From contig NZ_PZZM01000001.1 in the NCBI RefSeq assembly GCF_003046175.1, positions 3,117,001-3,181,000 of the forward strand: 64,000 nt of DNA. The letters run 5' to 3'. Under the pieces are notes generated by a model that made no database searches, was not told the origin of the DNA, and saw only the letters and a program-made list of their open reading frames with translations. The position numbers were made by a program, and so were the translations under genes. Positions 16,846-54,008 of the stretch are shown in pieces; position 1 is the stretch's first letter, and each line of letters opens with the position of its first letter. Origin of the DNA: Bosea sp. 124 (GTDB taxonomy: Bacteria; Pseudomonadota; Alphaproteobacteria; Rhizobiales; Beijerinckiaceae).

Positions 16846-18294
16846 ATGAGTGTCTTAAATTCAAACGAAGTAACACCTCATGTTGTGCGAGTTGATCGCG
16901 ATCGGATGCGGCTGAGCTATGAGCATGTCCAGACGCTCGCCTTCTCTATCGACGTTATTTTGATCGTTGTCGCTAGTATATTTTCGGGTATTATCTATCA
17001 TTTGGTTATTTTCTCCACTTCTGGAGATATTATTCAATACACTTCATTTGGATTTTTGACGGCAATAATATTTACATTTTCTAATCATTTTAGATCTTTG
17101 TATGCCGGTCAGGAGCTTCTGGATTTTCATAAACAGGTCCGGAGCATATTGTTTAATATAATACTTACTTTTTTCGTTTTGACATCTATTGCGTTCAGCC
17201 TGAAGATTTCGGTCTTGATATCCCGCGGCTACGTCGGGTTGTTTTTCTTCGCGACTTTGCTGAGTCTGGTGGTCAGCCGTGCGGTCTGGCGGCATTTCTT
17301 GCACATCGCCCTGGATCGTGGGTTGTTCGTGCGGCGTCGGATATTGGCTATATGCGAAGATGATCGTGATCTGGCTGGCCCTACGATCACCGAGCTCCGC
17401 CGTTATGGGCATATGCCGGTCAGTACGCTCAACATTCCTGCCGGCGACGTATCTCAGGAAGACATCCATGGCCTTATCCGGCAGGCTGCGACGGCTTCCC
17501 AAAATCTATCGATCGACGAGATCGTCATTGCTATTTCGATACATCGACTCAAGATCGTAACCCAGCTTGTCGAGGAGCTTCGTTCACTGCCGCTGCCGGT
17601 GCGGTTCGCGTTCGACGGTGCGTCAGCCGAGGTGATATCGCGGCCGGCGCACCAGTTGGGCGGCATCCTGTCGTTCCAGGTGCAGCGGCACCCCTTGAGT
17701 TTTTCGGAAAGCGTCCTGAAACGGTCGCTCGACATCGTCGCGGCATCGGCAGCGCTCATTGCTCTTGCGCCGACGATGCTGCTGACGGCGGTTGCCATCA
17801 AGCTGACCAGCCCGGGGCCGGTGTTGTTCAAGCAGATGCGCTTCGGGGTGAACGGGAAGCGGTTCCAGATCTTGAAATTCCGAAGCATGTCGGTCTTGCC
17901 GGAGGGCGCGGATTTCAGGCAAGCATCCAGGAACGATGCGCGCGTTACCTGGGTCGGCAGAATCATTCGCCGGACCAGCATCGACGAGTTGCCGCAGTTC
18001 TGGAACGTCTTGCGCGGCGAGATGTCGATCGTCGGCCCGCGCCCGCATGCGGTCGCTCACGACGAGGCCTATGAAAGCCTGATCCAGCGCTATGCGATGC
18101 GACGATTCATGAAGCCGGGACTTACTGGTTGGGCGCAGGTCAATGGCAGTCGGGGTGAAACTCCGAACGTTGAAAGCATGGTGCTGCGGGTTCAATATGA
18201 CCTGTGGTACATCGATAACTGGAGCATCTGGCTCGATGCGTCGATCATGTTCCGAACTCTGTTGCTACTCTGCAATCCAAAGGACGTTTACTAA
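16846..18294 (+). CDS. Undecaprenyl-phosphate sugar-1-phosphate transferase (WcaJ/ExoY superfamily)
   Basis: 482 residues. Starts exopolysaccharide repeat-unit assembly by moving a hexose-1-phosphate from a nucleotide sugar to undecaprenyl phosphate. The N-terminal half has four hydrophobic helices plus a Rossmann-like CoA-binding-type domain (VRRRILAICEDDRDLAG). The catalytic half starts with KRSLDIVAASAALIALAPTML and contains SPGPVLFKQMRFG, FQILKFRSM, SIDELPQFWNVLRGEMSIVGPRP and KPGLTGWAQVNGSRGE, all diagnostic. The length matches the large WcaJ/PssY form. The 5' third is visibly AT-richer than the rest. It is the obvious first enzyme for the glycosyltransferases scattered through the window. 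Confidence 0.95.
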   Translation: MSVLNSNEVTPHVVRVDRDRMRLSYEHVQTLAFSIDVILIVVASIFSGIIYHLVIFSTSGDIIQYTSFGFLTAIIFTFSNHFRSLYAGQELLDFHKQVRSILFNIILTFFVLTSIAFSLKISVLISRGYVGLFFFATLLSLVVSRAVWRHFLHIALDRGLFVRRRILAICEDDRDLAGPTITELRRYGHMPVSTLNIPAGDVSQEDIHGLIRQAATASQNLSIDEIVIAISIHRLKIVTQLVEELRSLPLPVRFAFDGASAEVISRPAHQLGGILSFQVQRHPLSFSESVLKRSLDIVAASAALIALAPTMLLTAVAIKLTSPGPVLFKQMRFGVNGKRFQILKFRSMSVLPEGADFRQASRNDARVTWVGRIIRRTSIDELPQFWNVLRGEMSIVGPRPHAVAHDEAYESLIQRYAMRRFMKPGLTGWAQVNGSRGETPNVESMVLRVQYDLWYIDNWSIWLDASIMFRTLLLLCNPKDVY

Positions 18295-18409: not shown

Positions 18410-18994
18410 ATGTCGGGGACAATCGTCGATTGCACCACGAGCAAGACGAGTGACGCAGTCAGTTTGTATCGCCGCACCATGGGGCGCCTCGCCGGCGGGG
18501 TCGCGGTGATCCTGTCAGGCACCCGGGAGGCGCCGGTCGGAATGACCGTCAATTCACTGGTTTCCGTGAGTCTGAATCCCTTGCTGCTGCTGTTTTGTGC
18601 CAGACTTCATAGCGCGACGGCTGCAGCGATTGCCCGCAGCGAGGTGTTCTCGGTGAACATCCTGACGGAAGGGCAGATCCGCGCGTCGGTTCATTTTTCG
18701 GGAAAGCACGCGGATTTCGACACGGCCGACCTTCAGGCTCGTGACGAGCATATCTGGATGAAAGACAATGCAGGCACGATGCTTTGCCGTGTCGAACGCA
18801 TCCATCGCGCCGGCGATCACGACATTATCATTGGCCGGGTCGACGACGTCATCGCCGGAAGCGAATTGCCGGCGCCGCTGATCTATCATGAAGGGCAGTA
18901 CTATTCACTCGGAAGCGCCTGCGCGCTTCCCGAGCGTGGAGACAGCAGGGCGCTTCGCCTGTCCGTCCCGGATGGTTATGAAGGCCGTCCATGA
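18410..18994 (+). CDS. Flavin reductase (HpaC/DIM6-like), likely FMN supplier of a monooxygenase
   Basis: About 194 residues of the flavin-reductase-like split-barrel family, which uses NAD(P)H to make free reduced FMN or FAD. Family features are the opening LYRRTMGRLAGGVAVILSG, MTVNSLVSVSLNPLLLLFC, the FSVNIL strand and ...FSGKHADFD. The start at 18410 is favoured because TAGGAA lies six bases upstream. An ATG at 18404 is too close to it. Its end overlaps the following GT2 gene by 4 bp (ATGA), so it is translationally coupled to a polysaccharide gene. The only FMN-dependent monooxygenase I see in the window is the luciferase-like domain of the NRPS at 40674-45299. That domain needs free reduced FMN, so this may be its trans-acting partner (inference). 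Confidence 0.88.
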   Translation: MSGTIVDCTTSKTSDAVSLYRRTMGRLAGGVAVILSGTREAPVGMTVNSLVSVSLNPLLLLFCARLHSATAAAIARSEVFSVNILTEGQIRASVHFSGKHADFDTADLQARDEHIWMKDNAGTMLCRVERIHRAGDHDIIIGRVDDVIAGSELPAPLIYHEGQYYSLGSACALPERGDSRALRLSVPDGYEGRP

Positions 18995-20043
18995 CTGAAC
19001 TCGGTTCATGTGCGCCCCATCGTCGCGACGATGATTCGACCGCGCCGGGAACTGAGCATGGCGGCGCGCCTGCGCGGTCGGTCGGCATCGTCATCATCGG
19101 CCGGAACGAAGGACAGCGGCTTGTCGATTGTCTGGCGTCGGTCGCATCGGCGCATGCGCCAACCGTGTATGTCGATTCCGGATCGACGGATGGCAGTGTC
19201 GCAGCCGCACAGGGCGGGGGCACGGCCATTGTTCGTCTCGACATGTCCCGGCCGTTCACTGCCGCTCGCGCGCGCAATGCAGGGTTCCGCGAACTGATCG
19301 GCATTTATCCCGATCTCGATTTTGTTCAGTTCGTCGATGGCGATTGCGTGCTCGACCCGCGCTGGATCGGTGCCGCGGTCGATTTTCTGAACAGCCGGCC
19401 CGACGTCGCGCTGGTTTTCGGGCGGCGGCGCGAAATGCATCCGGATGCGTCCATCTTCAACGCGATGTGCGATGAGGAGTGGAATGCTCCCGTCGGACAG
19501 GCGCTTGAGTGCGGTGGCGATACCCTGATCCGGGGCGACGCCTTCAAGGCGGTGCAGGGCTTCTCGGACACGCTTATCGCGGGCGAGGAGCCGGATCTGT
19601 GCGTTCGGCTGCGAACCAATGGCTGGAGCATCTGGCGGTTGGACGCGGAGATGACCCGCCATGACGCCAATATCACTCGCTTTTCGCAGTGGTGGCGACG
19701 GAGTGTGCGCGCGGGCCACGCATTCGCAGAGGTCTCCCGCCGCCATGCGGGCTCGGAATTCGGGATATGGAAGCCCAGCCTGGTCCGCGCTGTCGTCTGG
19801 GGCGGGCTGCCCATTGTGGCCGTCGCTGCCGCTTTGCTCTGGCATCCCGTCTTTGTCATGCTTTTGGGGCTCCTGCCCCTCCAGGTGATCCGACTGGGAT
19901 TGAGGCGACCCGAGGGGGCAAAGGAGCGGTGGGCCCACGCCTTCTTTTCGGTGTTGGGCAAATTCCCGGAATTCCAGGGCGTTGCGAGATTTTATGCCTC
20001 CCTTCTCCGAAAAGGGGACAGGACCATCATTGAGTACAAGTGA
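18991..20043 (+). CDS. Glycosyltransferase family 2
   Basis: 350 residues. The GT-A fold starts near residue 31 with VGIVIIGRNEGQRLVDCLASV, continues with VDSGSTDGS and carries the metal-binding DxD as VDGDC (D116, D118). ARARNAGF is the usual acceptor-side helix. About 240-330 holds one or two hydrophobic helices (VVWGGLPIVAVAAALLW, VFVMLLGLLPLQVI), so the enzyme sits at the membrane. The ATG overlaps the flavin-reductase stop (ATGA). It probably adds a sugar to the lipid-linked repeat unit begun by the WcaJ-type enzyme. Confidence 0.92.
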   Translation: MTELGSCAPHRRDDDSTAPGTEHGGAPARSVGIVIIGRNEGQRLVDCLASVASAHAPTVYVDSGSTDGSVAAAQGGGTAIVRLDMSRPFTAARARNAGFRELIGIYPDLDFVQFVDGDCVLDPRWIGAAVDFLNSRPDVALVFGRRREMHPDASIFNAMCDEEWNAPVGQALECGGDTLIRGDAFKAVQGFSDTLIAGEEPDLCVRLRTNGWSIWRLDAEMTRHDANITRFSQWWRRSVRAGHAFAEVSRRHAGSEFGIWKPSLVRAVVWGGLPIVAVAAALLWHPVFVMLLGLLPLQVIRLGLRRPEGAKERWAHAFFSVLGKFPEFQGVARFYASLLRKGDRTIIEYK

Positions 20044-25726: not shown

Positions 25727-25912
25727 GCCCGGTTCTCTGCGCTGACGGAGTCGTTCGGCCTCCGGCCATGTCAGCCGGCTACATTTTCCGGCATTGCGGT
25801 CAAAGATCGGTGCCGTAGCTCTCAACGCAGCTCCGGCATGACGCCGGCCGAACGTTTCCAATGCAAGGCACTTTGGCCAGATCACTGGCAGGCCAAAATT
25901 TCCGGAGCTGTT

Positions 25913-27250
25913 ATGCTTTTGTCATCACGAAATATAATCAGAGGCGTCGGCTGGACGACAATTTTATATTTCATTGCTGTTGGCTTTCGCTTTGTCTCCA
26001 GCGTGATCCTGTCGCGATTGCTGGCGCCGAACATCATGGGCATGATGGTAATCATCAATACCATCCGCCTGGGCGTGGAATTGTTTTCCGATATTGGCAT
26101 CGGCCAGAACATCGTTCAGAATAAGAACGGCGGTCGGCCGACTTTTTATAATACGGCGTGGATTATCCAGATTGCCAGGGGATTTTTTCTCAGTTCAATT
26201 TTGTTCTTATTCGCCAGAACGTTTTCGGAATATTATCAAGTCGACGACCATATGATCCAGGCGGCTTCTCTTAGCCTTGCCTTGGCAGGTTTCATGTCGA
26301 CATCGATATATCTGATGCAGCGCCATCTCAAAATTGTTCAGTTGTCCGTGTTTGAATTGTCTCAAGAGGTGATGGCAAGCACGATAGGAATCATTGCAGC
26401 TATAATTAATCCATCGATATGGTCTCTGATTATTGCTGGAGTCATTTCGACGGCTATTCGGGTTATCCTGACGCATTTTCTTCCCGGCGCAGGGCAAATG
26501 CTGATCTTTTCGAAGAAGCATGCGGGAGAGATATTTTCGTTCGGGAAGTGGATATTCTTGTCGTCCCTGCTCATGTTCATGAGTTCGAATTTCGATCGTT
26601 TGTTTCTTGGGCAGGTCGCGCCCCTCGCCATGCTGGGCGTCTACGGGATCTCGCGGGCCATCGCCGATCTGCCCAGTGTCCTGGTCAACAGACTGAGCCA
26701 TTCACTGGTGTTTCCCGTTATCGCCTCGGCCCGCACGGTGCCTCGCGCGGAGGTCCGCGCAAGGCTCTCGCGTCTTCGCCTGAAACTACTCGCTGCCGCG
26801 GCCATCGCACTGGCGGCGGGGATCAGCGTCGCGGATCTCGTGGTCCATGTGATCTACGACGACAGATATCTCGATGCCGGCTGGATGCTGATCGTGCTGC
26901 TCAGCGGCGTGTGGCTTTCGATCCTCGCCAGCCTGAATGAGTATAGCCTCCTTGGATTGGGGCGCCCGGTCTACGGCGTCATCGGCAACACACTGAAGCT
27001 GGGCGCTCTCATTTACGTGCTGCCTCACGCATTTGCCCAATACGGCATGTTCGGGGCGGTGGTCGGCATCGCGATGGCCGATTTGCCTCGGCTTTGCATT
27101 TTGTTGTTTGGTCAGTTTCGCGAGCGATTTTCCTTCATTCGACAAGATATCGCCACGACGATTCAGCTCGCGCTTTTCATCGTGATTTTCTCGGCTGTCC
27201 GCTATTATTTCGGGTTCGGCACGCTGCTCGACACTTTGCCTATCCGATAG
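25913..27250 (+). CDS. Wzx-like lipid-linked oligosaccharide flippase
   Basis: About 445 residues with 12-14 hydrophobic helices in the MATE/MOP (polysaccharide transporter) pattern. The opening SSRNIIRGVGWTTILYFIAVGFRFVSSVILSRLLAPNIMGMMVI is characteristic, as are SDIGIGQNIVQ and FGKWIFLSSLLMFMSSNFDRLFLGQ. It would flip undecaprenyl-linked repeat units to the periplasm for polymerisation. The ATG at 25913 has GGAG five bases upstream, while a longer frame to 25838 adds non-hydrophobic residues. The first half is AT-rich compared with the second half. Confidence 0.92.
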   Translation: MLLSSRNIIRGVGWTTILYFIAVGFRFVSSVILSRLLAPNIMGMMVIINTIRLGVELFSDIGIGQNIVQNKNGGRPTFYNTAWIIQIARGFFLSSILFLFARTFSEYYQVDDHMIQAASLSLALAGFMSTSIYLMQRHLKIVQLSVFELSQEVMASTIGIIAAIINPSIWSLIIAGVISTAIRVILTHFLPGAGQMLIFSKKHAGEIFSFGKWIFLSSLLMFMSSNFDRLFLGQVAPLAMLGVYGISRAIADLPSVLVNRLSHSLVFPVIASARTVPRAEVRARLSRLRLKLLAAAAIALAAGISVADLVVHVIYDDRYLDAGWMLIVLLSGVWLSILASLNEYSLLGLGRPVYGVIGNTLKLGALIYVLPHAFAQYGMFGAVVGIAMADLPRLCILLFGQFRERFSFIRQDIATTIQLALFIVIFSAVRYYFGFGTLLDTLPIR

Positions 27251-38677: not shown

Positions 38678-39973
38678 TCAGGCGTGCCGCGCAATCAGTT
38701 CGGCGCGCTCCCGGTACAGCTTTTCCTCGTCGTAGAGCCGGCCGGAGCGGGCCGCGTTGCGCACCAGTTCGGCTAGCCGCGATCGGTCGGCATCAAGGTG
38801 GACAAGCGAGGCCCCGAGAGCGGCGACGTCGTCAAGCGGCGAGAGCATTCCGCCGCCGCCGTTCTGGACCAGCCCTTCCGGATAGCCGCCGGTGTAACCG
38901 ACGATCGGGCAGCCCGATACGAGCGCCTCGATGAGGCAGCGGGGGGATTCCTTGGTCTTGTGGCAGAACATGAAGATGTGGCTGCTGCGCATGGCCTCGA
39001 GGATCGTGGCGCGATCGCCGACATATCCCGGCAAGGCGACATATTCGGAAATCCCGAGCTTCTCAGCCAATTCTTTCATCTCGGGCAGCAGCGGACCGTC
39101 GCCGAGCCAGCAGGCTTCGAAGGACAGGCCGGCCTGTCTGGCCGATGCCAGGGCGTGAAGCCAATCGAGCGGCCCCTTCATCACCGCGGCTCGTCCCACA
39201 TAAGTGACGCGCAGCTTCTGGCCGTTCAGGATGCCATCGATTTTTTCGTCGAGCCGGGGAGTCTCGATGAAATCGCTGGGCTGCGTGTGCACGTCGTAGA
39301 CGCAGGCGGGATTGGAGGCGTAGGGCGCATAGGCCTTGAACGTGTCCATTCCCTGCAACAGGGCCAGCGAGCTTCGTCCAAGCAGGTAGCGGTGGTAGGG
39401 AATCATGAGGGGCAGGGTGAGCCTCTCCTTGATCTGCCGCCGCAATGGCAACTCCGGGAGCGCGTTGCGGATCACATCCTGCTCGACGCGATCGAACCAG
39501 ATGGCAAATTTCCGGCCTTGCGACCTCGCTTCAAGCGCGGCGATGGCTGCCCAATCGCCCACCAGATAGCCCACGGTGAAGGAGAGGTGGTCGGCCCTTC
39601 GAATTTCGGCTGCCAGAAGCGCCCGCGTTTGCCTGTAATTCGCGACGAAAGTCCCGACACGATAGGCCAGCGGCAACGGCACGAAGCGGATTTGCGCGCT
39701 GCAGGGCAGGTCGACGACATCGAGCCATGTCGCGGAGGTCGCATCCTCGGACGCATCCGCCAGCGCGATGCCGGCGAATGTGACGGTCTCGAAATGCTCG
39801 GCCCATCGGCAGATGCCGGCACAGGTCTGATCATCGAGCCGCAGGCCGCGTGGCCCCTGCCGCAGCCGAACCGCCGTGACCAGCAGCAAATGTCCCTTCG
39901 CGCCTGTAGGCGGGGCCGCGCTGTCTCGATCGTCGCGGTGCGTGGGAGAGTGCGCGTCAAGCCCGGTCGTCAT
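38678..39973 (-). CDS. Glycosyltransferase family 4
   Basis: 431 residues. After a polar leader the fold starts GHLLLVTAVRLRQGPRGL. The C-terminal domain has VTYVGRAAVMKGPLDWLHAL, WLGDGPLLPEM and the donor motif KESPRCLIEALVSGCPIVGYTGGYPEG, typical of GT4. It ends in a helical tail (RLYDEEKLYRERAELIARHA). Stands alone between the small membrane protein and the divergent NRPS, with its own promoter in the gap at 39974-40673. Confidence 0.9.
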   Translation of the reverse strand: MTTGLDAHSPTHRDDRDSAAPPTGAKGHLLLVTAVRLRQGPRGLRLDDQTCAGICRWAEHFETVTFAGIALADASEDATSATWLDVVDLPCSAQIRFVPLPLAYRVGTFVANYRQTRALLAAEIRRADHLSFTVGYLVGDWAAIAALEARSQGRKFAIWFDRVEQDVIRNALPELPLRRQIKERLTLPLMIPYHRYLLGRSSLALLQGMDTFKAYAPYASNPACVYDVHTQPSDFIETPRLDEKIDGILNGQKLRVTYVGRAAVMKGPLDWLHALASARQAGLSFEACWLGDGPLLPEMKELAEKLGISEYVALPGYVGDRATILEAMRSSHIFMFCHKTKESPRCLIEALVSGCPIVGYTGGYPEGLVQNGGGGMLSPLDDVAALGASLVHLDADRSRLAELVRNAARSGRLYDEEKLYRERAELIARHA

Positions 39974-40673
39974 CTACGTCACCTCTTGGCACGGGGCAGC
40001 ATTGGAGATGGTCCAGCGCGGTGGAAAACCGTGTCACAGTCATAGGCTTTTGCAACCACTGCAGGTCGCCTGCTCCGGGGCAATGCCACTTGCGCGCGTA
40101 CCGAATTATCCTGTGCCAATCGAGCAAACGGATTGAGAAAGGTCAAAGACAAACGAGTCTTTCTGATCTTAAACGGCCGTTGGCGGCTGTTATTCGGGAT
40201 CAACTGCAATGCCACGTACAACGAATGTGATCAGCTCGCCAAGCGCAAACCAAATTGGCAACAATTCCGCATCTATAGTCTTTGCCTTAACATCATTCGT
40301 ACGACGGCGCGGGCTGTAGATGGTTAACCAAAAGTTGACGAAACGCCAATGTGTTTCGTCGAGGTCTTGATTTTCGCCTTGTGGAGTGGATCATGACGTG
40401 TGAGTTCGGTGCTGCCGTAAAGGTCGGCGGCATCACTCTGGGATAGACGAAGTGCTACCGAGGCGGGGGGCTTCAAAACGGCCTCGGTCGGGAGGCACGA
40501 AGCCATCATCGGACTTGCAACCTGGTCCGATGTCGGATTGACGGATGTTTGAGGCCATGCCGCCGCGATTTGTCGCATGTTGGCGTGATGTTTGAAGAAG
40601 AAATCGATTGGTCGACCGCAGTTCGATCTGCGCATCATTCTGACGCAACCGCATAATCGAATTGGTACATCGC
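39974..40673. other. Divergent intergenic region before the NRPS
   Basis: About 700 bp of moderate GC with no convincing gene. A 17-codon frame at 40393 (MTCEFGAAVKVGGITLG) has a GGAG upstream and might be a leader peptide, but nothing else supports it. AT-rich words around 40310-40340 could be part of the NRPS promoter. Confidence 0.4.
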
Positions 40674-43600
40674 ATGCTCAAAATGACATCCGTTCTGATG
40701 GGCGAAGAATCTCTCCTGGTCCAGTGCGCCGAGATTCTCGTCGGGCGCGGTCATGGCATTCAGGCGATCGTATCCAGCTCGGTCTCGGTCCGGAAATGGG
40801 CCGAGGAGCGGAAGATCACGGTCGTCGAGCCGGATCATGGCTATGAGAGCGTCCTCTCGCAGCTCGACTATGACTGGTTCTTCAGCGCATCCAATCTGCG
40901 CATGGTCCCGGACGGCGTTTGGAAGCGCGCCCGACACGGAGCCGCCAATTTCCATGACGGCCCCTTGCCGCGATATGCGGGCCTGAATGCTCCGACATGG
41001 GCCCTGCTGGCGGGTGAGACGCAATACGGCATCACCTGGCACTCGATGGTGGAGGCGGTCGATGAAGGTGACATCCTTGTTCAGATCACCTTCGACGTCG
41101 ATGAGCACGACACCGCGTTGACCCTCAATACCAAATGCTTCGAAGCGGGAATCGACGGATTTCTGTCCCTGGTCCAGCAAATCGAAAGTGGGTCGCTGGC
41201 CCCGAGGGCGCAGAGCCTGTCTGAACGGACCTATTTTCCAAAGTTTCGGCTGCCGGAGGCTGCGGCGACACTCCAGTTCGATGCAACGACCGATCAGGCC
41301 GAGCGGCTGTTCCGCGCGCTCGATTATGGCAGCGGCTATCGAAATCCGCTGGCCTTCACCAAGGTCCTCATTGCCGGGAAGGCCTATAATATTGGCCGGT
41401 TGACGCGCGATGACAGCGTCGCTGGCGCGGTGCCCGGGCAGGTCGTCGAAATCAGCGACGGCAGTGCCGTGATTGCGACGCGCGACGCGGCGGTCAGAAT
41501 TGCCGATCTGACGGATGAGTACGGGACGACCGTCGAGATCTCGTCCGTGCTGAGCCGGGGGCAGAACCTGGCCGCGATCGAGCCGAGCCTCGCGACTGAT
41601 CTGACGACGCTTTCAATTGGCCTCGCGCGTTGCGATGCCTATTTCAGGCGCCAACTGCGCTCGCTGCAGGATCTCGACCTGCCATGGTTCGATCGCAGTG
41701 CCGACCTAGCGCCCGCCGGACGCAAGAGCTTGCCTGTCGCTACGCCTTCCGGCCTGGCGACCAGCGCAGTTGCCATTGCCTTTCTCGCCTATCTCTCGCG
41801 CGTCGCCTCCCAGGATGCATTCGGTATCGCCTACGGCAATGACGAGTTGCAGGGCCGGGCAGCGCGCTTTCCTGGCTATGTTGTCCCGACCATGCCTTTC
41901 GTCGCTCGTTTCCTGGAAAAGGATACGGTCGCGTCACTGGTCGAGCGGGCTGATGCCGAATTTGCGACATTGCGGGCGAAGCTGGGGCAATCTGGTGATC
42001 TCATTGTCCGCAACCCCGATCTGACCGCAACGCGATTGTCGGTCGGGCTTTACGAGGGAGCCTCCGGAGACAACCTGCTCGGCTTCGAGAGCTCGATTCT
42101 CATTCTGGCTCTTTCGCCAGGGAACAAGGGCACCCTGATCTACGATCCGGCCCGGATCAGCGCGGCGGGAATGGAATCGCTCGCGGCGGGCTTTGCGGCG
42201 TTCCTGGCGGAATTCGCCGCCGACGGAAGCCGTGCCATCGCAGAGCTGGCGATGTTGGGCGAGGCGGAGCGAAGGCTGGTCCTGTTCGACCACAACCGTT
42301 CGGAGCGCGATTACGATCGCGAGATCTGTGTCCATCAGTTGATCGAGCAGGCCGTCGACCGGACCCCGGACGCAATCGCGCTCTGCTGCGACGACGAGGA
42401 GATCAGCTTTGCGGAGCTGGACCGGCGCGCCAACAAGGTTGCGCATGAACTGATCCGGCTTGGGGTTCGCCCTGGCGCGCTGGTCGGGCTTTTCCTGCCG
42501 CGGTCACTGGAACTGGTGATCGGGGCGTTCGCGATCCACAAGGCTGGCGCGGCCTATGTTCCGCTCGATCCGGCCTATCCGGCCGATCGCACGACGATGA
42601 TGGCGCAGGACAGCGATCTGTCGGCGATCATCTTCAACCAGGAGTCACTGCACGCGATCCCTCACTGCGATGCGCAGCGATTGGACATCGATGCCGTCAT
42701 CAACGGCGGGAGCCCGATCGAGCGCCCGCATCTGAGCATCGCATCGAGCGAACTGGCTTATGTGATCTATACCTCGGGTTCGACCGGCCGTCCCAAGGGC
42801 GTGATGATCGAGCACCGGAACGTCGTCAATTTCTTCGTGGGCATGGATGAGCGGATCCGCCGGGACGACCGGCAACAGCCGGTGTGGCTGGCCGTGACGA
42901 GCCTGTCGTTCGACATCTCGGTGCTGGAGCTGTTCTGGACACTTGCGCGCGGGTTCAAGGTCGTGATCAATATGGACGCGTCGCATCGACGCGCCCTGCC
43001 GAAGAAGCGGGCCGCCGGGGCTATGGATTTCAGCCTGTTCTACTGGGGCAACGACGACGGCGCGGGTCGGTTGAAATACCAGTTGCTGCTGGATGGCGCG
43101 CGTTTCGCCGATACGCATGGCTTCAAGGCCGTGTGGACGCCGGAGCGTCATTTTCACGCTTTCGGCGGCCCCTATCCGAATCCTGCCGTCACCGGCGCCG
43201 CCGTGGCCGCTGTGACGCGGAACCTCGAGGTCCGCGCCGGGAGTTGCGTGCTGCCCCTGCATCCGCCGGCGCGCGTGGCCGAGGAATGGGCGGTCGTCGA
43301 CAACCTCAGCGATGGGCGCGTCGGGCTGGCCTTCGCGTCCGGCTGGATGCCCGAAGATTTCATTCTGAGACCCGAGAATGCGCCGCCCAACAACAAAGCG
43401 GCTCTCTTTCGCGACATCGAAGTCGTCAGGAAGCTCTGGCGCGGTGAAGCCGTGCCGTTCGACATGGCAGGCGGCAAGACGATCCAGATCGTTACGCAGC
43501 CGAGGCCAGTTCAACCGGAGCTGCCAGTATGGGTAACGACCGCCGGCAACCCGGAAACCTATCGGGAGGCGGCGCGGGTCGGCGCCCATGTCCTGACCCA

Positions 43601-45299
43601 CCTGCTTGGTCAGTCAATCGATGAGCTGGCCGGGAAAATCACGATCTACCGGGATACGCTGAGGGAGTGCGGGCATAACCCGGACGACTTCACCGTCACG
43701 CTCATGCTCCATACGCTGGTCGGCGAAGATCGTGAACAGGTCCGGGAGCTGGCGAGGGAGCCGATGAAGGCTTATCTTCGCAGCGCGGCTGCGTTGATCA
43801 AGCAATATGCTTGGGCGTTCCCTGCGTTCAAGAAGCCGCAGGGCGTCACGGCACCCTTGGATATCGACCTGCAATCGCTTGATGCAGATGAGATGGACGC
43901 CATCCTCGAATTCGCATTCCTGCGTTATTTCGACGACAGTGGGCTGTTCGGTACGGTGGAGGATGCGCTCGCTCGTGTCGCGGCGTTGAAGGCGATCGGC
44001 GTCAATGAAGTGGCCTGCCTGATCGATTACGGGGTCGCCTCCAGCACCGTCATGGAAGGCCTGTCACCACTTGCCGACGTGGTTGCCCGCGCCAATGAAA
44101 GCGCTCCGGCCCAGGTCGAGCCTGAGCGCGATCTTGGTCTCGCCGGTCTCATTCGCCATCATCGCGTCACGCATATGCAGGCGACGCCCTCGATGATGAC
44201 GATGATCATGATGAACGACGAGGATCGTGAGGCGCTCTCAAGCGTGCAGCATCTCTTCATCGGCGGCGAGGCTCTGCATGGCTCGCTGCTGCGGCAGATC
44301 AACCAGGTGACGAAGGCCTCGGTTGAAAACATGTACGGGCCGACCGAGACGACGATCTGGTCGTCGACGCAGCGGGCCGCACCGACCGATGGCGTCGTTC
44401 CGCTCGGCCAACCCATTGCGAATACACAGCTTTACGTGCTCGATCGCCATCAGTCGCCCGTGCCGGTTGGATGTCCCGGCGAGCTTTTCATCGGCGGTGA
44501 TGGTGTTGCGCGTGGTTACCTCAAGAACGCCGGGCTGACCCAGGAACGCTTTGTCGAGAATCCATTCGTCCCGGGGCAGAGGATGTATCGCACCGGCGAT
44601 CTCGTGCGCCGCGATCCCGGTGGCACGCTGAGTTTCATCGGGCGGGCGGATCACCAGGTCAAGGTTCGGGGTTATCGCATCGAGCTGGGCGAGATCGAGG
44701 CGCAGCTCGGCCAGGTTGCGGGCGTGTTGGAGGCGGTGGCCATGGCACGGGAGGATCAGCCGAACGATGTGAGGCTGGTCGCCTATCTCCGCTTTGCCGG
44801 TGAGCCCGTACCGGACGCGAAGCTGCGGGTTCATCTTGCCGCGACGCTTCCGGAATTCATGATCCCGGCGCATTTCGTCGCGATGGCGGCCTTCCCGCTG
44901 ACGCCGAATGCGAAGGTCGACAGGAAGGCCTTGCCGCGGCCTGACGAGGCGCGTCGCGCCCAGGCGCCGACACCGTCACCCGCCGTCGAGCTGAGCGGCG
45001 ACCTCGAGCCGGCAATCGCCGATGCTTTCAAACAGTTCCTTGGATTGGAACGCGTCAGCACGGGCGATAACTTCTTCAAATTGGGAGGCCATTCCCTGCT
45101 TGCGGTGCAGATGCATCGTCACTTGAAGGCGACCTTGGCGCCAAGCCTGACGATTACAGACCTTTTCCGCTTCCCGACCGTTGCCGGATTGGCCGAGCAC
45201 CTCAAGGGCAGCAGCAAGGCCTCTGACCAGCTCGGGCGGGTTGCCGATCGCGCGGCGATGCGACGCAACGCGATGAATCGAGGCTCGCTTCGCTCTTGA
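40674..45299 (+). CDS. NRPS: formyltransferase - partial C - adenylation split by luciferase-like monooxygenase - PCP
   Basis: About 1541 residues; numbering here counts from an in-frame TTG at 40662. Residues 8-290 are a methionyl-tRNA-formyltransferase-like domain with NFHDGPLPRYAGLNAP (N96, H98) and DEGDI (D137). Residues 315-525 look like the back half of a condensation domain without the HHxxxDG motif. The adenylation domain begins near 555 (A3 YTSGSTGRPKG at 703, A4 LSFDISVLELFW) and is interrupted from about 785 to 1145. The insert is an FMN-dependent luciferase-like monooxygenase (MDFSLFYWGNDDG, FKAVWTPERHFHAFGG, LAFASGWMPEDF). The adenylation domain then resumes (A5 NMYGPTETT at 1223, A8 VRGYRIELGEIE, A10 NAKVDRK). 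A PCP follows with LGGHS (S1478). This is the MupA/Atu3671 class. No thioesterase is present, so release must occur elsewhere. A PPTase gene overlaps its end. Confidence 0.93.
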   Translation: MLKMTSVLMGEESLLVQCAEILVGRGHGIQAIVSSSVSVRKWAEERKITVVEPDHGYESVLSQLDYDWFFSASNLRMVPDGVWKRARHGAANFHDGPLPRYAGLNAPTWALLAGETQYGITWHSMVEAVDEGDILVQITFDVDEHDTALTLNTKCFEAGIDGFLSLVQQIESGSLAPRAQSLSERTYFPKFRLPEAAATLQFDATTDQAERLFRALDYGSGYRNPLAFTKVLIAGKAYNIGRLTRDDSVAGAVPGQVVEISDGSAVIATRDAAVRIADLTDEYGTTVEISSVLSRGQNLAAIEPSLATDLTTLSIGLARCDAYFRRQLRSLQDLDLPWFDRSADLAPAGRKSLPVATPSGLATSAVAIAFLAYLSRVASQDAFGIAYGNDELQGRAARFPGYVVPTMPFVARFLEKDTVASLVERADAEFATLRAKLGQSGDLIVRNPDLTATRLSVGLYEGASGDNLLGFESSILILALSPGNKGTLIYDPARISAAGMESLAAGFAAFLAEFAADGSRAIAELAMLGEAERRLVLFDHNRSERDYDREICVHQLIEQAVDRTPDAIALCCDDEEISFAELDRRANKVAHELIRLGVRPGALVGLFLPRSLELVIGAFAIHKAGAAYVPLDPAYPADRTTMMAQDSDLSAIIFNQESLHAIPHCDAQRLDIDAVINGGSPIERPHLSIASSELAYVIYTSGSTGRPKGVMIEHRNVVNFFVGMDERIRRDDRQQPVWLAVTSLSFDISVLELFWTLARGFKVVINMDASHRRALPKKRAAGAMDFSLFYWGNDDGAGRLKYQLLLDGARFADTHGFKAVWTPERHFHAFGGPYPNPAVTGAAVAAVTRNLEVRAGSCVLPLHPPARVAEEWAVVDNLSDGRVGLAFASGWMPEDFILRPENAPPNNKAALFRDIEVVRKLWRGEAVPFDMAGGKTIQIVTQPRPVQPELPVWVTTAGNPETYREAARVGAHVLTHLLGQSIDELAGKITIYRDTLRECGHNPDDFTVTLMLHTLVGEDREQVRELAREPMKAYLRSAAALIKQYAWAFPAFKKPQGVTAPLDIDLQSLDADEMDAILEFAFLRYFDDSGLFGTVEDALARVAALKAIGVNEVACLIDYGVASSTVMEGLSPLADVVARANESAPAQVEPERDLGLAGLIRHHRVTHMQATPSMMTMIMMNDEDREALSSVQHLFIGGEALHGSLLRQINQVTKASVENMYGPTETTIWSSTQRAAPTDGVVPLGQPIANTQLYVLDRHQSPVPVGCPGELFIGGDGVARGYLKNAGLTQERFVENPFVPGQRMYRTGDLVRRDPGGTLSFIGRADHQVKVRGYRIELGEIEAQLGQVAGVLEAVAMAREDQPNDVRLVAYLRFAGEPVPDAKLRVHLAATLPEFMIPAHFVAMAAFPLTPNAKVDRKALPRPDEARRAQAPTPSPAVELSGDLEPAIADAFKQFLGLERVSTGDNFFKLGGHSLLAVQMHRHLKATLAPSLTITDLFRFPTVAGLAEHLKGSSKASDQLGRVADRAAMRRNAMNRGSLRS

Positions 45300-45964
45300 C
45301 GATCCAGGACGTCCTCCCGTCGGTGTTCGACCGACGGGCGGCAGCGGTCGCAGTGCCGATTACCGCCGACCTGGTTTCCCTGCTGCGCGTCGAAGAGCGC
45401 GAAGGCATCAGGGGGGCTGTGCCAAAGCGCCAACATGAATTCGCGGCCGGGCGTCGGTGCGCGCATCTGGCGATGGCGCAGCTTGGATGTCCGGCCGCGC
45501 CGGTTGCGGTCGGCGATGACCGTGCGCCGATCTGGCCTGAAGGGCTTGTCGGCAGCATCAGCCATTGCGAAGCGTGGGCTGCTGCCGTCGTCGCACGAAA
45601 GGCCGACGGCATCCGCTCCATAGGGCTGGATCTCGAACCCGCATTGCCCCTTCCGCAGGATCTGGTTCAAACAATCCTGCGGCCGGAGGAGTGTCTTGCG
45701 CTTGGATTATTGCCCGTGGAGACGCAGTTGCAATGCGCGCGGCTGATATTCTCTGCCAAGGAAGCGTTCTTCAAATGCCAGTATGCGCTCACCGGAGCCT
45801 TTATTGATTTCCAGGCTGCAGCGATCAGCCTTGACCTGGCACGGCGCTCATTTCGCGCGGTGCTGACCGGCGCGGTCGGCGCATTTCCGGCAGGGCACAG
45901 CTTTGACGGCCGCTTTCACTGCGACGCTCCGATCATGGTGACCGGCGTCACGCTCGAGGCGTAA
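45296..45964 (+). CDS. 4'-phosphopantetheinyl transferase (EntD/Sfp-type)
   Basis: 222 residues. Attaches the phosphopantetheine arm to carrier proteins. Visible are GSISHCEAWAAAVVA, the Mg-binding IGLDLEPA (D and E) and FSAKEAFFKCQ, whose Lys-Glu completes the site. EntD-like layout and length. The TTG start overlaps the NRPS stop (TTGA at 45296-45299), so the enzyme is made together with the NRPS. It could also activate the PKS carrier domain at 7.6-14.1 kb (S1816). Confidence 0.9.
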   Translation: MTIQDVLPSVFDRRAAAVAVPITADLVSLLRVEEREGIRGAVPKRQHEFAAGRRCAHLAMAQLGCPAAPVAVGDDRAPIWPEGLVGSISHCEAWAAAVVARKADGIRSIGLDLEPALPLPQDLVQTILRPEECLALGLLPVETQLQCARLIFSAKEAFFKCQYALTGAFIDFQAAAISLDLARRSFRAVLTGAVGAFPAGHSFDGRFHCDAPIMVTGVTLEA

Positions 45965-46043: not shown

Positions 46044-47741
46044 TCATCTCAGGCTTGGCAGGCTGGCGAAGTCCTGGCCCTGAACACTCTTCTTCCTGAG
46101 CCGGATGAAATCGAGTTCGCGCGATGGGATCCATCTCATGCTTCCCATATCGATCTTGTTCAGGATGCAGCCGATGAGCTTGGAATGGACCGGGTGCGCC
46201 ATCGACAGCCCGACCTGCATATGCTCGACGCTGACGTTACCCCACCCTACGACGAGAAGAATGCCGTCGATGAACTTCGTAGCTGCCCGGATATCACCCG
46301 GCATCGTCAGGGGAGGGAGGTCGAAAATAACGTAGTCGTAGGTTTCCCTCGCACCGGCTATCAGGTTCGGCATCTTGTCGAGCCATTCGAGCGACTTCAT
46401 GCCGTGCTTTGCGCCGGACGGAAGGAAATGAAGTCCCGTTTCCTGATCAATCTTTACAAACTTGTTCAGGTCGGACTGCCGTCCGGTTCCATATTCGATC
46501 AGACCGCGCTCTTCGGCCAGGCCAAAGCGCCTCGACAGACCCGCGGTGTAGATATCGCCGTCGACCAGCAAGGTTCTTTTGCCGGCTGTCGCGAGAGAGA
46601 TGGCGAGATTGCTCGCGATCGTCGTGCAGCCTTCGCCGCGAATGAGCGATGCCACTCCGATGACCTGAAACTTGCCGCCTCGCAGGTTTTCATCCGATGC
46701 GAAGCGCGCGTTCCTGAGCGTGTGCCACAGCTCGTTCTGCTTGACCGCCTTGATCGCGCAGAGAGCCGCAGGCGGTATTTGAAACGCTCCTTTCAGAAGG
46801 AGTTCCTTGTTGGGCTTCGCCTTGGTGGCGCTCTTGTTGAGCAGCGGCATCACCGGAACCACCCCCAGGAAGGGCGAGCGCGTGGCTTCCGCTGCCTGCT
46901 CCGGGGTCCGCACGCTGCGATCGAGAAAAGCCATCACCAGGGCAAAGGTGACGGCGGCTGCGCCGCCGAGGATGCCGGCGACCGCGATGATGAGGATGCC
47001 GCGTACATTGCTTTTGTCGGCGGGCGGCATGGCCGCAGCGATGATGCGGGTTTTTGGACCCACCTCGCGCAGGCGTTCACGGAGCCAGCTGCTGCCGGAC
47101 TGTGCCGCATCGATGCGCGCCATGTTCTGGTCGACGATGTAGGCACGAACGATATCGTTCGTGATCCGGGCGGCCTGATCGGCGTCAGGTGCTGTGAACT
47201 TCAGTTCGACGACATTGCTAAGGGAAACCCGTTCGGCCGAGAGGCCACGCTGCACCATCTTCAGAGCGGCTGCCTTGGGATCGCTCATCGCTCCCGCAAC
47301 GCCCGCATCGGGCGGGCGGGGCGCGAACATCATGCCGAGTTCGCCGATGATTGCAGAAAGCCCACCGCCGCGACTCTCCTGCGGCTGATCAGGCAATTTG
47401 AGATTGTCGACGACAGCCAGGGCGATGCGCTCGGAGCGCATGATCTGAATCTGCGTCTCGATAAAGGTCGGATCGAGTTGGGTCTCTGCAAAAAAAGCGT
47501 CGTCGCGGCTGAACGTCAGGCGCAGGTTGGTCAGTTGAAGATGCGCCGTTGCCGTGTAGGTCGCGGGTCGCGTCAACACAAAGATGATAGCGAAGGCCAC
47601 TGCGACCAGACTGATCAATGCGATCAAGCGCTTGAAGCGGAACACTGTTCCAAGCATCCAGCGCAAGCTGAATTGCGAGGGCGCCGCCACCTCGTCATCG
47701 AAGGGAGTCTGAGGCGAATGGATGTTGGTGATATTCAACAT
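46044..47741 (-). CDS. Wzc/ExoP-like polysaccharide co-polymerase with degenerate kinase site
   Basis: 565 residues. Controls chain length and export in Wzx/Wzy systems. N-terminal Wzz-type membrane domain: TM1 about 37-57, periplasmic part with PTFIETQIQIMRSERIALAVVDNL, and TM2 about 247-270. The P-loop domain is BY-kinase-like with Walker A' LLVDGDI (391-397) and Walker B VIFDLPP (471-477). However, the Walker A reads GEGCTT (369-374), so the phosphate-binding Lys is Cys372, and no Tyr cluster exists at the C-terminus. The periplasmic region is also short, lacking the long coiled coil. It is therefore probably a structural co-polymerase, not a kinase. Three bases separate its ATG from the stop of the upstream export gene. 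Confidence 0.9.
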   Translation of the reverse strand: MLNITNIHSPQTPFDDEVAAPSQFSLRWMLGTVFRFKRLIALISLVAVAFAIIFVLTRPATYTATAHLQLTNLRLTFSRDDAFFAETQLDPTFIETQIQIMRSERIALAVVDNLKLPDQPQESRGGGLSAIIGELGMMFAPRPPDAGVAGAMSDPKAAALKMVQRGLSAERVSLSNVVELKFTAPDADQAARITNDIVRAYIVDQNMARIDAAQSGSSWLRERLREVGPKTRIIAAAMPPADKSNVRGILIIAVAGILGGAAAVTFALVMAFLDRSVRTPEQAAEATRSPFLGVVPVMPLLNKSATKAKPNKELLLKGAFQIPPAALCAIKAVKQNELWHTLRNARFASDENLRGGKFQVIGVASLIRGEGCTTIASNLAISLATAGKRTLLVDGDIYTAGLSRRFGLAEERGLIEYGTGRQSDLNKFVKIDQETGLHFLPSGAKHGMKSLEWLDKMPNLIAGARETYDYVIFDLPPLTMPGDIRAATKFIDGILLVVGWGNVSVEHMQVGLSMAHPVHSKLIGCILNKIDMGSMRWIPSRELDFIRLRKKSVQGQDFASLPSLR

Positions 47742-47744
47742 TAC

Positions 47745-49043
47745 CTATCTCGTCACGAAAGACTTATCCAGGGAGCCGAAACGCTCTTTAGCCGGAGGCT
47801 CGGAACCCGGCTGCGAGCTTCGGCGCTGGCTTGCCGGTGAGGCCGACCGAGCGGTATCCTGCGGACGGAAAACCTTCAGAATGTCACCAGGCAGAATGCG
47901 GGTGGTCTCGGTTGCCTGCAATTCTCTGATTTCTTCGCCAACGGGCCTCAGGATGACGAATGTAAATTTCGCGTCCGAATCCGTTTCGTCGGCATTGCTC
48001 GGCGCAGAGCTCATTGCCATCGAACCCGCGATCAGCCGGCTCGATGTCTCGAACCGCTCATCGAGTTCCTTCACCTGAGCGAGAATCGTGTGCAATTCGG
48101 CCAAGGCTGCGCTCTGCCGATCATCCTGCAAAGCCGACCGCTGCGACGCAATCAGGTTGATCTGCTGGCGGGCGCGCAGGACAGCGGTCTCAAGCTCCCG
48201 CTGTTCACGCTCGATTTGTGCAACCGTCCGTTCGAGAGGCAGGATACGCGGTGCCGGAGCAAGCCCCCGCGCGATCAGACCGCGGGTTTCCTCGAGTTCG
48301 CGCGCGACCGACTCTTTCTGCTTTTCGGCAGCCTTGGACTGCGCCTGAATGGACACGATCTCGCGTTCGAGGAGGATTACGGACTCGCCATAGGCCTTGA
48401 TCTGGTTCCGGTGCCGTTCGATCCTCGCGTTGAAAATGCCGCGCTCTTCGTCGATGAAGCGTGACGACGCGGCGACACCTTCGGCGACAGGCAAGGCCTC
48501 GAGGCCTGCAGCCTCCGCCTTGAGACGCCATTCTCTGGCCGCGAACTCGTTACGCTTCACCAGCACCGTGCGCAGGTCGCCGCGGCCGGTGATCGAGTCG
48601 CGCTCGAAGCCCCAGTCCGAGGTGCGGGGTGGACGATATATGCCGCCGGCAATCGTCACCGCATTGAGCACGACCATTTGGGGGCGATAGGCGTATTCAC
48701 CCGGGCGCTCGACCCCGCCCAGGATATAGAACGGTCGGTATTGCGCGACAGAAACTGCCGTATCAGGCAATTCGAGGAGCTGAGCCTTTGCTTTGATCGC
48801 CTCTGCGATCCGGCTGGCCAGTTCACCGGAAGCCAACCCCGTCGCAGGGACGTCGCCGATCATGGGGAGTGTGATCTTTCCGTCGGGGCCGATCGCGAAT
48901 TCGCCAGTCAAGACCGGCCATTCGTGCACGTGAATGCGAAGTCGATCCTGCACGCCAAGACGATAGGCGCCCTCTTGAGCGCGGACAGCTTCTGCCTGGA
49001 AAAGGCCCAGGGTCAGAAAAATCATGCCTGCTTTCGTCTGCAT
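47745..49043 (-). CDS. ExoF/Wza-type polysaccharide export protein with coiled coil
   Basis: About 432 residues. Signal peptide (MQTKAGMIFLTLGLFQAEAVRAQ) precedes the polysaccharide-export domain YRLGVQDRLRIHVHEWPVLTGEFAIGPDGKITLPMIGDVPA. An SLBB-type segment follows (PFYILGGVERPGEYAYRPQMVVLNAVTIAGG). A long coiled coil (about 180-330, rich in Glu/Gln/Arg) and a C-terminal SLBB-like strand pair ending PGDILKVFR complete it. This is the ExoF layout known from rhizobia, where the coiled coil may replace the periplasmic part missing in the adjacent co-polymerase. No lipobox, so not a Wza lipoprotein. The start at 49043 is set by the signal peptide. Confidence 0.9.
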   Translation of the reverse strand: MQTKAGMIFLTLGLFQAEAVRAQEGAYRLGVQDRLRIHVHEWPVLTGEFAIGPDGKITLPMIGDVPATGLASGELASRIAEAIKAKAQLLELPDTAVSVAQYRPFYILGGVERPGEYAYRPQMVVLNAVTIAGGIYRPPRTSDWGFERDSITGRGDLRTVLVKRNEFAAREWRLKAEAAGLEALPVAEGVAASSRFIDEERGIFNARIERHRNQIKAYGESVILLEREIVSIQAQSKAAEKQKESVARELEETRGLIARGLAPAPRILPLERTVAQIEREQRELETAVLRARQQINLIASQRSALQDDRQSAALAELHTILAQVKELDERFETSSRLIAGSMAMSSAPSNADETDSDAKFTFVILRPVGEEIRELQATETTRILPGDILKVFRPQDTARSASPASQRRSSQPGSEPPAKERFGSLDKSFVTR

Positions 49044-49370
49044 TCCCGTACGGTTCCTCTGGGGCGTCTGCGGTCCTTCCTTTATGGAATTGCGCATGAT
49101 GTTTTATAGACGGAACCGGGAAGCGAGCAAAGGCGTCGAGCTGGTTTAATAGGAGTTTATGGTCAACGCTGCACAGATGGTTATCGAACGTTACCGTACT
49201 CTTCGCCGGCGCGAGGTGTGGCTTGTCGAGAGACGGTTATCGAAATTCGCCCTGGCGAAAACTGCGTGGTGCCGCCGGAATCTCGTGGATTGCGGTCGAG
49301 GTCGTCCGTCGCCCGTTGATATTCTCCGGCCGATGTCCCCGCCTTGCGAGAGGGATCTTGGGCCGTGTTC

Positions 49371-52342: not shown

Positions 52343-53680
52343 TTAGCCCAGTGTACGCAATGCCTTGCCTCTGAATGGCTCCGAGTCTCGCACGCGCCGC
52401 ATCGAGCGAACTTTGGCGGCTGAGCCAAATATGATGCCGGCAGTAATGCCAAAGAGATACTGAACGCCCTTTCCGAAGAAAATGTACTCGAGAAAGGAGT
52501 GAAGGCCGACGATCAAAATCGCGATACCGCAGCCGAGCAGGAGGTCGCCAACCCGGCTCTGTCGTGCCAGCCAGCCATAGCGGAATGCGGTGTAGAAGGG
52601 CATTAGCAAGATCAGGACAAAGCTGACCATTCCGAAGTAGCCCGTTTCCGCAGCGGCGAGCAGATAAGCGTTGTGAACGATGTTGTTCAAATTGCCTTCA
52701 AAGGGAATGACTCCGGCTCGTATGGAGTAACCGGCGTTCTTGGCTTCATTGACATAGTGGTTCGCGCCGACGCCCATCGGGCGATCATTCAAGATCATCA
52801 GCGCGGCTCGATTGAATGCGGCTCGTTCGTTGTACTCGGCTTCATCAAGCGGGGTGGCTTCGAAGCGCGCCTGAAAGGACGTTGCCGCGACCGGCGCCAT
52901 CGCAACCGCGCCGAGAATGCAGATCAGCGCAATCTTTGCCTTGTGCGAGGTCCAGCGCCGCAGGAACGATATGCTCATACATACCACCAAGCCCAGCACG
53001 ATGAAGCCCAATGCCGCGCGCGAGGCGATCAGAGCTGCGATCAGCATGCCGGTGACGGGGATCAAGGCGAATTGTAGCCGGCGCAAGCCAGCGAGGAGAA
53101 GCATCATGTGCGGGAAGACGACGAAATGAGCGGCAAGGCCAAGCGTGTTCTGGTGAATAAACGTTCCCGTGGGCTGGATCATATGCTGACCCCAGCGTTG
53201 CCACGAAATCACAAAAATCTGGATTACGAGTCCAAGCGCCATGCCCTTGAGAAGTTCGGCGGATACGGCCTCGTCCACGGAGGCGCGTGCAACAACTATA
53301 ATTAAGAAGTAGACTTTTGCGTACTGAAAAAGATAGAATGCAGACGCCATCGGCTCGTCGGCCTGCTGAAACGATATCAATATCGCGATAAAATACAGTA
53401 TGAACGGAAAATGATAATTGATCCCATCTTTTGGCTTCTTCGAGATAATAAATAGAGCTGCCACTATTAAATCGATAATTGAAATTTCAATCCCATAGAC
53501 ATAACCAAACCACTTGTTCCCCCACGAGATCAGGCCGATGTCGATATGCACGGCCTGAATGAGGAACGGCAGTATTCCGACAGCCGTCCAAGCGTATTTC
53601 TGGATGACAGGTGCGCTTCGCATCAGTAACGACAACGGAAAAATCCCGGCGAGGGCAATCAGCAATGAGACGTATTTCAT
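52343..53680 (-). CDS. O-antigen ligase/Wzy-family polysaccharide polymerase
   Basis: About 445 residues with eleven or so hydrophobic helices. The large periplasmic loop and the following helix carry RPMGVGANHYV ... VHNAYLLAAAETGYFGM, the conserved Wzy_C/WaaL segment. It would polymerise lipid-linked repeat units delivered by the Wzx-like flippase at 25913. The start at 53680 (MKYVSLL) has GGAGG 11 bases upstream; a frame open to 53731 adds a polar leader. AT-rich like the downstream glycosylation genes. Confidence 0.87.
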   Translation of the reverse strand: MKYVSLLIALAGIFPLSLLMRSAPVIQKYAWTAVGILPFLIQAVHIDIGLISWGNKWFGYVYGIEISIIDLIVAALFIISKKPKDGINYHFPFILYFIAILISFQQADEPMASAFYLFQYAKVYFLIIVVARASVDEAVSAELLKGMALGLVIQIFVISWQRWGQHMIQPTGTFIHQNTLGLAAHFVVFPHMMLLLAGLRRLQFALIPVTGMLIAALIASRAALGFIVLGLVVCMSISFLRRWTSHKAKIALICILGAVAMAPVAATSFQARFEATPLDEAEYNERAAFNRAALMILNDRPMGVGANHYVNEAKNAGYSIRAGVIPFEGNLNNIVHNAYLLAAAETGYFGMVSFVLILLMPFYTAFRYGWLARQSRVGDLLLGCGIAILIVGLHSFLEYIFFGKGVQYLFGITAGIIFGSAAKVRSMRRVRDSEPFRGKALRTLG

Positions 53681-54008
53681 TGGCTCGGTTGCCTCCAGAT
53701 ATCGCTGATCGTCGACGCCGTGCAGCGCCATACTACGGGCAGCGCGATAAGGCGAGCGCGGCTCATGGTGGCTTACGGTCAGCGCGTTGATATTCAGTTT
53801 CCGGTAGGCTCCAGGATCTCGGCATCAATCCTGCGGACCTCGAGCGCCAACCGCCGAAGGTCGCAGCGCTGGTATTCGGCTTGCGGCAGATATCGAGAGC
53901 CGGCGCTGCCTCCTCAGCCTGGCGTGGAGCGAATGAGGCGGCGGCCCTCGTCCTCGAAAGCTCGGCACAAACGATGTCGCCGGCCGAGCAAGCGCTGCGG
54001 CTCAAGCG

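Follow-up and report, generated by a model that had tools for sequence, protein, structure and literature searches.

A putative formylating starter module with an embedded luciferase-like monooxygenase accompanies a polyketide synthase in an exopolysaccharide locus of Bosea sp. 124

What might a nonribosomal peptide synthetase (NRPS) contribute to a cluster of polysaccharide genes? The question is raised by a stretch of 64,000 nucleotides from Bosea sp. 124 (contig NZ_PZZM01000001.1, positions 3,117,001 to 3,181,000; hereafter the window), in which an NRPS with an N-terminal formyltransferase (F), an adenylation (A) domain interrupted by a luciferase-like monooxygenase (LLM), and a peptidyl carrier protein (PCP) is encoded amid genes for exopolysaccharide (EPS) assembly and export, together with a type I polyketide synthase (PKS). 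The answer we favor, at about even probability, is a two-protein NRPS-PKS whose product, a small acyl group, is destined for the EPS; the NRPS would be its loading half. The original prediction for this gene had proposed a rare starter enzyme that activates, formylates, and oxidizes one amino acid; neither the PKS nor the polysaccharide locus figured in it.

The NRPS frame spans 40662–45299 on the forward strand (TTG start, 1545 aa in the open reading frame list) and supplies the residue numbers used below; an in-frame ATG at 40674 and a public protein of 1541 aa fit the span 40674–45299. Because 29 relatives align with the protein over its full length (30 proteins with the window's own, 40–76% identity), the frame is real, far above chance, and the same end-to-end alignment rules out a chance frame or a frameshift fusion. 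Pfam placed Formyl_trans_N at residues 61–167 (1.1e-16) and Formyl_trans_C at 201–297 (6e-6), AMP-binding at 562–774 (9e-87, the better of two pieces), Bac_luciferase at 799–1115 (1e-46), AMP-binding_C at 1344–1418, and PP-binding at 1451–1514 (6e-12), bearing out the predicted N-terminal formyltransferase and the one PCP at the end. The natural-product LLM family TIGR04020 (NCBIfam) covered residues 790–1140 with 481.9 bits, above its curated cut-off of 244.45, and the second A piece was found at residues 1159–1359. As had been claimed, the complete LLM sits between motifs A4 (FDISVLE, 750–756) and A5 (NMYGPTETTIW, 1223–1233). A domain search and a structure prediction of the split A domain had been proposed as checks; the former found both the formyltransferase and the luciferase-like matches, and in the latter the two A halves come together in a single modelled fold that surrounds the insert.

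The predicted domain list was correct in its order and overlooked a segment between F and A. A profile of 30 segments from residues ~323–546 matched 8hlk_A 201–463 (E 1.1e-15), and single-sequence searches with the condensation family PF00668 matched 8 of the 30 NRPS members at E ≤ 0.1 (best 2.9e-5), with no match in the window protein's own segment. These profile matches identify the segment as a condensation domain reduced to its C-terminal lobe. The formyltransferase seems to take the place of the missing catalytic lobe, because a search of residues 1–560 found no motif of the HHxxxDG type, and the lobe, its catalytic half lost, is probably a structural spacer. A working condensation domain was ruled out by the missing motif and by the lack of a PF00668 match both in the segment and in the window's genome.

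The A domain carries the code DILQFGMIWK (GrsA numbering), and the pattern DILQxGM[IV]WK is found in 30/30 aligned proteins. Eight further F-less or truncated proteins read DILQxGM[IV]W followed by K, or by A in L047; they come from 12 rows drawn from L043–L060 under the rule that one BLAST piece spans the LLM, loci without such a piece being uncounted (L049 and L050 had already been counted, L046 is truncated early, and the 330-aa frame of L048 has no A domain). In PMC12283262, DILQLGMIWK is given as common to four glycine-activating domains carrying an oxidase, a match to the window code at 9 of 10 positions. Glycine is a well-supported prediction for the substrate, which sharpens the proposed activation of one amino acid; the intact motifs are consistent with the rest of that claim, namely formylation and oxidation.

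Formylation of the loaded glycine is suggested by catalytic residues that are intact (N96, H98, and D134 of the formyltransferase in 30/30 aligned proteins) and by the precedent of LgrA; Ser1478 of the PCP is likewise kept in 30/30. LgrA opens the linear gramicidin assembly line with formyltransferase-A-PCP, its PDB structures match the window NRPS, and the window protein has the same N-terminal formyltransferase with its N-H-D triad ahead of A-PCP, a reading that the modelled fold (residues 1–297 of the model) also bears out. LgrA is not known to have an LLM, or a condensation lobe separating its F and A domains. It is partnered by an NRPS condensation domain, whereas the Bosea genome gives no PF00668 match and the companion of the NRPS is a PKS.

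The LLM can be compared with several known or proposed oxidases. Oxidase-interrupted glycine modules are known from myxothiazol and melithiazol biosynthesis, where the genes are MtaG and MelG. PMC10204066 places the flavin monooxygenase of these synthetases between motifs A4 and A5 of an A domain for glycine, with the alpha carbon of the glycyl group as its site of hydroxylation; the products of the subsequent cleavage are an amide and a glyoxyl thioester. The window protein shares the LLM position and the glycine code but differs in its setting, as theirs is a late module at which the chain is broken to an amide, whereas here a first module has a formyltransferase ahead of it and a PKS after it; no upstream module is seen, because the NRPS starts with a formyltransferase and the genome search for PF00668 gave no match. 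The closest solved LLM, at 49% identity (6ket, sequence E 9.9e-109), is the oxidase domain of the puwainaphycin protein PuwE, which by contrast stands on its own between PKS and NRPS modules, outside any A domain (PMC4219810). The fabrubactin protein FbnE is also a flavin monooxygenase, proposed to give alpha-hydroxycarboxylates (PMC12971057). It differs in belonging to a siderophore cluster and is likened here by description only.

Flavin monooxygenases also make hydroxamates, and the presence of a formyl group and glycine on a single module would suit hydroxylation of the nitrogen, yielding N-formyl-N-hydroxyglycyl, a hadacidin-like hydroxamate, and with it a metal-binding polysaccharide. 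We consider this very unlikely: PuwE is predicted to yield a 2-hydroxy acyl group (PMC4219810), and the myxothiazol and melithiazol domains act on the glycyl alpha carbon (PMC10204066). Alpha-hydroxylation is the expected reaction because the insertion site, the code, and the LLM family are shared with myxothiazol-type modules.

The proposed role as a starter unit is supported because the PKS of the same window accompanies the NRPS in relatives. We compared 31 relative loci, comprising 24 of 42 genome loci and seven plasmid loci (annotated plasmid regions were taken for 8 of 17 records covering 80% of the query). The PKS lies inside the fetched stretch in 22 of the 31, with a partial copy at the end of L031, and among the remaining eight loci seven genomes hold a full-length PKS elsewhere at 46–74% identity, so that it is near the NRPS or in the same genome for 30/31. 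L067, nearly a copy of L062, was left out (L022 and L037, also similar to each other, were both counted). Also omitted were the 4-kb contig L040 and L051, whose NRPS is divided between two frames, both matching the F region, together with L043–L048 and L052–L061, which are F-less, truncated, or distant; the NRPS of L039 has a broken or shortened frame. In a second sample, drawn from 385 genomes of the class and 397 of the family, 26 genomes matched, the window's own included, and flanks were taken for 18 of the other 25 (G369 and G551 with very long frames, G370, which is like G280, and G375, G731, G755, and G793 with short frames or contig ends were omitted). G592 and G280 have an LLM but no NRPS, PKS, or EPS match, so counts use 16 loci, matched when one piece covered over 35% of the query; 15 of these are new, G014 apparently being the same record as L038. 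The PKS accompanies the full NRPS in all 16, within 20 kb in 15 and elsewhere in the genome in G014. Identity matrices of the two proteins over 33 pairs correlate with r 0.94, matched by 0 of 2000 permutations. This agrees with co-inheritance, but species history contributes to the value, and the test does not tell the two apart. The NRPS-PKS partnership is well supported by these comparisons, and the NRPS tails frequently finish in a short basic stretch that is possibly a docking element. As a separate observation, the pair is followed by another NRPS-matching gene in three Anaerolineae loci (L027, L029, and L050).

The PKS itself reads as a type I cis-AT module, with the active-site residues of KS, AT, KR, DH, ACP, and TE kept in the 21/21 proteins compared. 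It is the sole AT-bearing long frame of the genome by an AT search, a search that did not extend to KS-only genes; apart from the PKS, it matched just one 316-residue frame, which resembles FabD. The AT motif of the PKS reads AAHS. As the PKS has one module, a single extension, with malonate as the putative unit, would be expected. A doubtful alternative is an iterative PKS, similar to rhizobial RkpA, whose product would be a lipid-like carrier or anchor of the polysaccharide. A one-module PKS in a polysaccharide locus would suit it, as would a weak PfaA match (322 bits, cut-off 1010) and the position of KR before DH, an order that occurs in iterative synthases; it is at odds with the lack of an ER family among the 15 Pfam matches, with a best NCBIfam model that is a general type I PKS, itself below cut-off (930 of 1740 bits), and with a glycine starter module co-inherited with the PKS.

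If the NRPS-PKS is to serve an EPS, the pair should be considered in its genomic setting. The window holds a priming transferase, flippase, polymerase, Wza, and Wzc, and is well supported as an EPS locus; these genes and glycosyltransferases surround the NRPS as in other alphaproteobacterial Wzx/Wzy loci, from which the window differs in carrying the NRPS-PKS pair and a phosphopantetheinyl transferase. At least one EPS-family homologue is present in 19/20 alphaproteobacterial relative loci (L069 being the exception). At least two EPS families lie within ~20 kb on each side in 15/16 second-sample loci (none in G410) versus 0/20 control windows set at round coordinates in 10 genomes, with a Fisher p of 2.9e-9 that kinship among the genomes makes optimistic; three of the 16 flanks total less than 36 kb at contig ends, besides G531 (36.4 kb). 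Annotated plasmids of Aminobacter (2), Shinella, Ruegeria (2), Paracoccus, and Parasedimentitalea agree with this setting, the Aliiroseovarius plasmid being weaker, with glycosyltransferases solely at the far end of its stretch. A GT2 gene, not established as the counterpart of the window GT2 at 18991, separates the PKS from the NRPS in both Ruegeria plasmids and in those of Parasedimentitalea and Paracoccus, and the genes overlap or leave at most 14 bp between them.

These observations bear on the proposal that the NRPS-PKS makes a free, secreted small molecule (a metallophore, signal, or antibiotic) and merely shares its locus with EPS genes, which we regard as possible though unlikely. The EPS enrichment over control windows and the tightly packed GT2 gene speak against it. 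So do four rhizobial plasmid loci with formylating NRPS that appear, from match coverage, to be LLM-free, for which no EPS-type glycosyltransferase, flippase, or export gene is listed within 20 kb, in plasmid gene tables that are incomplete and with one side taken up by the NRPS itself in 3/4 loci. On the other side, the pair is mostly found without EPS neighbors outside the Alphaproteobacteria, some loci carry extra NRPS modules or thioesterases, the alphaproteobacterial L069 and the second-sample locus G410 lack any EPS family, and FbnE-like monooxygenase matches occur in clusters without other metallophore genes (PMC12971057). The rhizobial NRPS (L072, L073, L074, and L075) are in some cases very large, and several lie amid insertion sequences; L075 also has a trehalose-6-phosphate synthase. 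XrtD/VPLPA-CTERM exosortase genes were seen close to the NRPS-PKS pair in two Rhodobacterales plasmids (L064 and L069).

Several further points weigh against a loading module dedicated to EPS. EPS homologues were found in just 2/11 non-alphaproteobacterial loci (L035 and L026), where neighbors include other NRPS, a thioesterase, and varied genes (59 proteins scanned, 57 from 10 such loci and two from L036, a member of the Rhodobacteraceae; best 25 of 69 families), and the pair thus does not need an EPS locus. The genome G062 (from L021) has the NRPS and no PKS at E ≤ 1e-50, the PKS part of L069 belongs to a large fused NRPS/PKS and has just 35% identity, several second-sample genomes are closely related, and NRPS and PKS are 26.5 kb apart in the window. 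The canonical DH motif is HxxxGxxxxP; in 21/21 PKS it is spaced HxxxxGxxxxP, one residue longer, which makes dehydration uncertain. Product, activity, and attaching gene are all putative.

With these reservations, the favored NRPS-PKS route to an EPS substituent would run as follows. Glycine would be adenylated by the A domain and loaded onto the PCP, the formyltransferase would place a formyl group from formyl-tetrahydrofolate on its amino group, and the LLM would hydroxylate the glycyl alpha carbon as in myxothiazol and melithiazol. The KS would take the N-formyl-hydroxyglycyl starter, or a glyoxylyl thioester left by breakdown of the carbinolamide, and the PKS would add one malonate unit, then reduce and dehydrate. 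The TE would free a four-carbon acid destined for the EPS, where either of two proteins encoded in the locus, the acyltransferase and the SGNH-like protein, might place it (Table 1). We infer the formylation and alpha-hydroxylation chemistry from sequence and precedent, and attachment solely from the gene neighborhood. The SGNH-like protein itself was matched by nothing in Pfam, NCBIfam, or the PDB, and its family gave one weak DUF4886 match (E 0.095, 1/7 members); it reads as an SGNH hydrolase from its GHS and DxVH motifs, and either it or the acyltransferase could attach the product.

Table 1. Positions of the NRPS, its domains, the PKS, and neighboring EPS genes in the window
Feature	Coordinates	Strand	Basis or remark
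NRPS loading module (putative)	40674..45299	+	formyltransferase - condensation C-lobe - A(LLM) - PCP
Formyltransferase domain of NRPS	40674..41552	+	Pfam, alignment
Condensation-domain C-terminal lobe of NRPS, no catalytic lobe	41628..42299	+	profile match
Adenylation first half (A1-A4) of NRPS	42282..42974	+	Pfam and structure matches
LLM, FMN-type luciferase-like monooxygenase (TIGR04020), between A4 and A5	43029..44081	+	NCBIfam
Adenylation second half (A5-A10) of NRPS, code DILQFGMIWK	44136..44984	+	NCBIfam, alignment
PCP of NRPS	45012..45203	+	Pfam, alignment
Phosphopantetheinyl transferase	45296..45964	+	overlap of 4 bases with NRPS stop
Partner type I PKS, KS-AT-KR-DH-ACP-TE, 2160 aa	7645..14127	-	Pfam, active-site alignment
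Membrane acyltransferase (Acyl_transf_3)	6425..7525	-	119 bp downstream of PKS, same strand
SGNH-like protein	15279..16472	-	GHS near start, DxVH near end; recurs in several relative EPS loci
Priming sugar-phosphate transferase (Bac_transf)	16846..18294	+	EPS locus
GT2 glycosyltransferase	18991..20043	+	relatives recur close to NRPS-PKS pair
Wzx-type flippase (Polysacc_synt_3)	25838..27250	+	EPS locus
Glycosyltransferase upstream of NRPS	38678..39973	-	adjoins NRPS in several relatives
Wzz/Wzc-type co-polymerase and kinase	46044..47741	-	Pfam, NCBIfam
Wza-type polysaccharide export protein	47745..49097	-	Pfam, NCBIfam
Wzy-type polymerase / O-antigen ligase family (Wzy_C)	52343..53731	-	domain search

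Other genes of the locus include a Curlin-repeat protein (31768–33078) and a CsgG homologue (34432–35364), components of a curli-like amyloid system next to the EPS genes, and a glycoside hydrolase family 9 protein (22958–25726) that is also found within related EPS loci (Aminobacter, a Hyphomicrobium metagenome-assembled genome, and others).

In a variant of this route, which we rate as improbable, formylation and the LLM together would turn glycine into a glyoxylyl thioester starter: the formyl amide, once alpha-hydroxylated, would split into formamide and a PCP-bound aldehyde, much as happens at the chain end in the myxothiazol module, the PKS would extend the aldehyde, and the TE would place an aldehyde-bearing four-carbon acid on the EPS. 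Such an acid could cross-link amino sugars into a self-curing adhesive; a polysaccharide deacetylase is also encoded in the locus.

The starter module did not prove to be rare. There are at least 120 near-full-length relatives at 54% identity or more, and those listed (the best 120 of 7675 matches) are all 1511–1590 aa long; genes with the full architecture are present in Alphaproteobacteria, Myxococcota, Anaerolineae, and Planctomycetota. They are patchy, with a strong LLM in 17/397 genomes of the family and 11/385 of the class (the window's own included), and this patchiness suggests transfer or loss. One relative at 56% identity (P0022) is labelled Leptospira interrogans, a record that is possibly mislabelled. 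Each domain is already known, as are A4-A5 oxidase insertions in glycine domains; new to the literature searched are the starter composed of F, condensation lobe, A(LLM), and PCP, the regular pairing of this starter with a PKS, and the location in EPS loci. That search, of titles and abstracts and with subscription papers mostly outside its scope, returned no description of the NRPS-PKS pairing or of a link to polysaccharide.

If the favored reading is correct, an assembly line of the natural-product type would supply a building block of a surface polysaccharide, by means of two paired proteins whose conservation reaches from Anaerolineae to Alphaproteobacteria. The system would also provide a defined test of what formylation and flavin oxidation of carrier-bound glycine produce, and would point to an undescribed non-sugar EPS substituent in soil and marine bacteria, relevant to biofilm formation and attachment.
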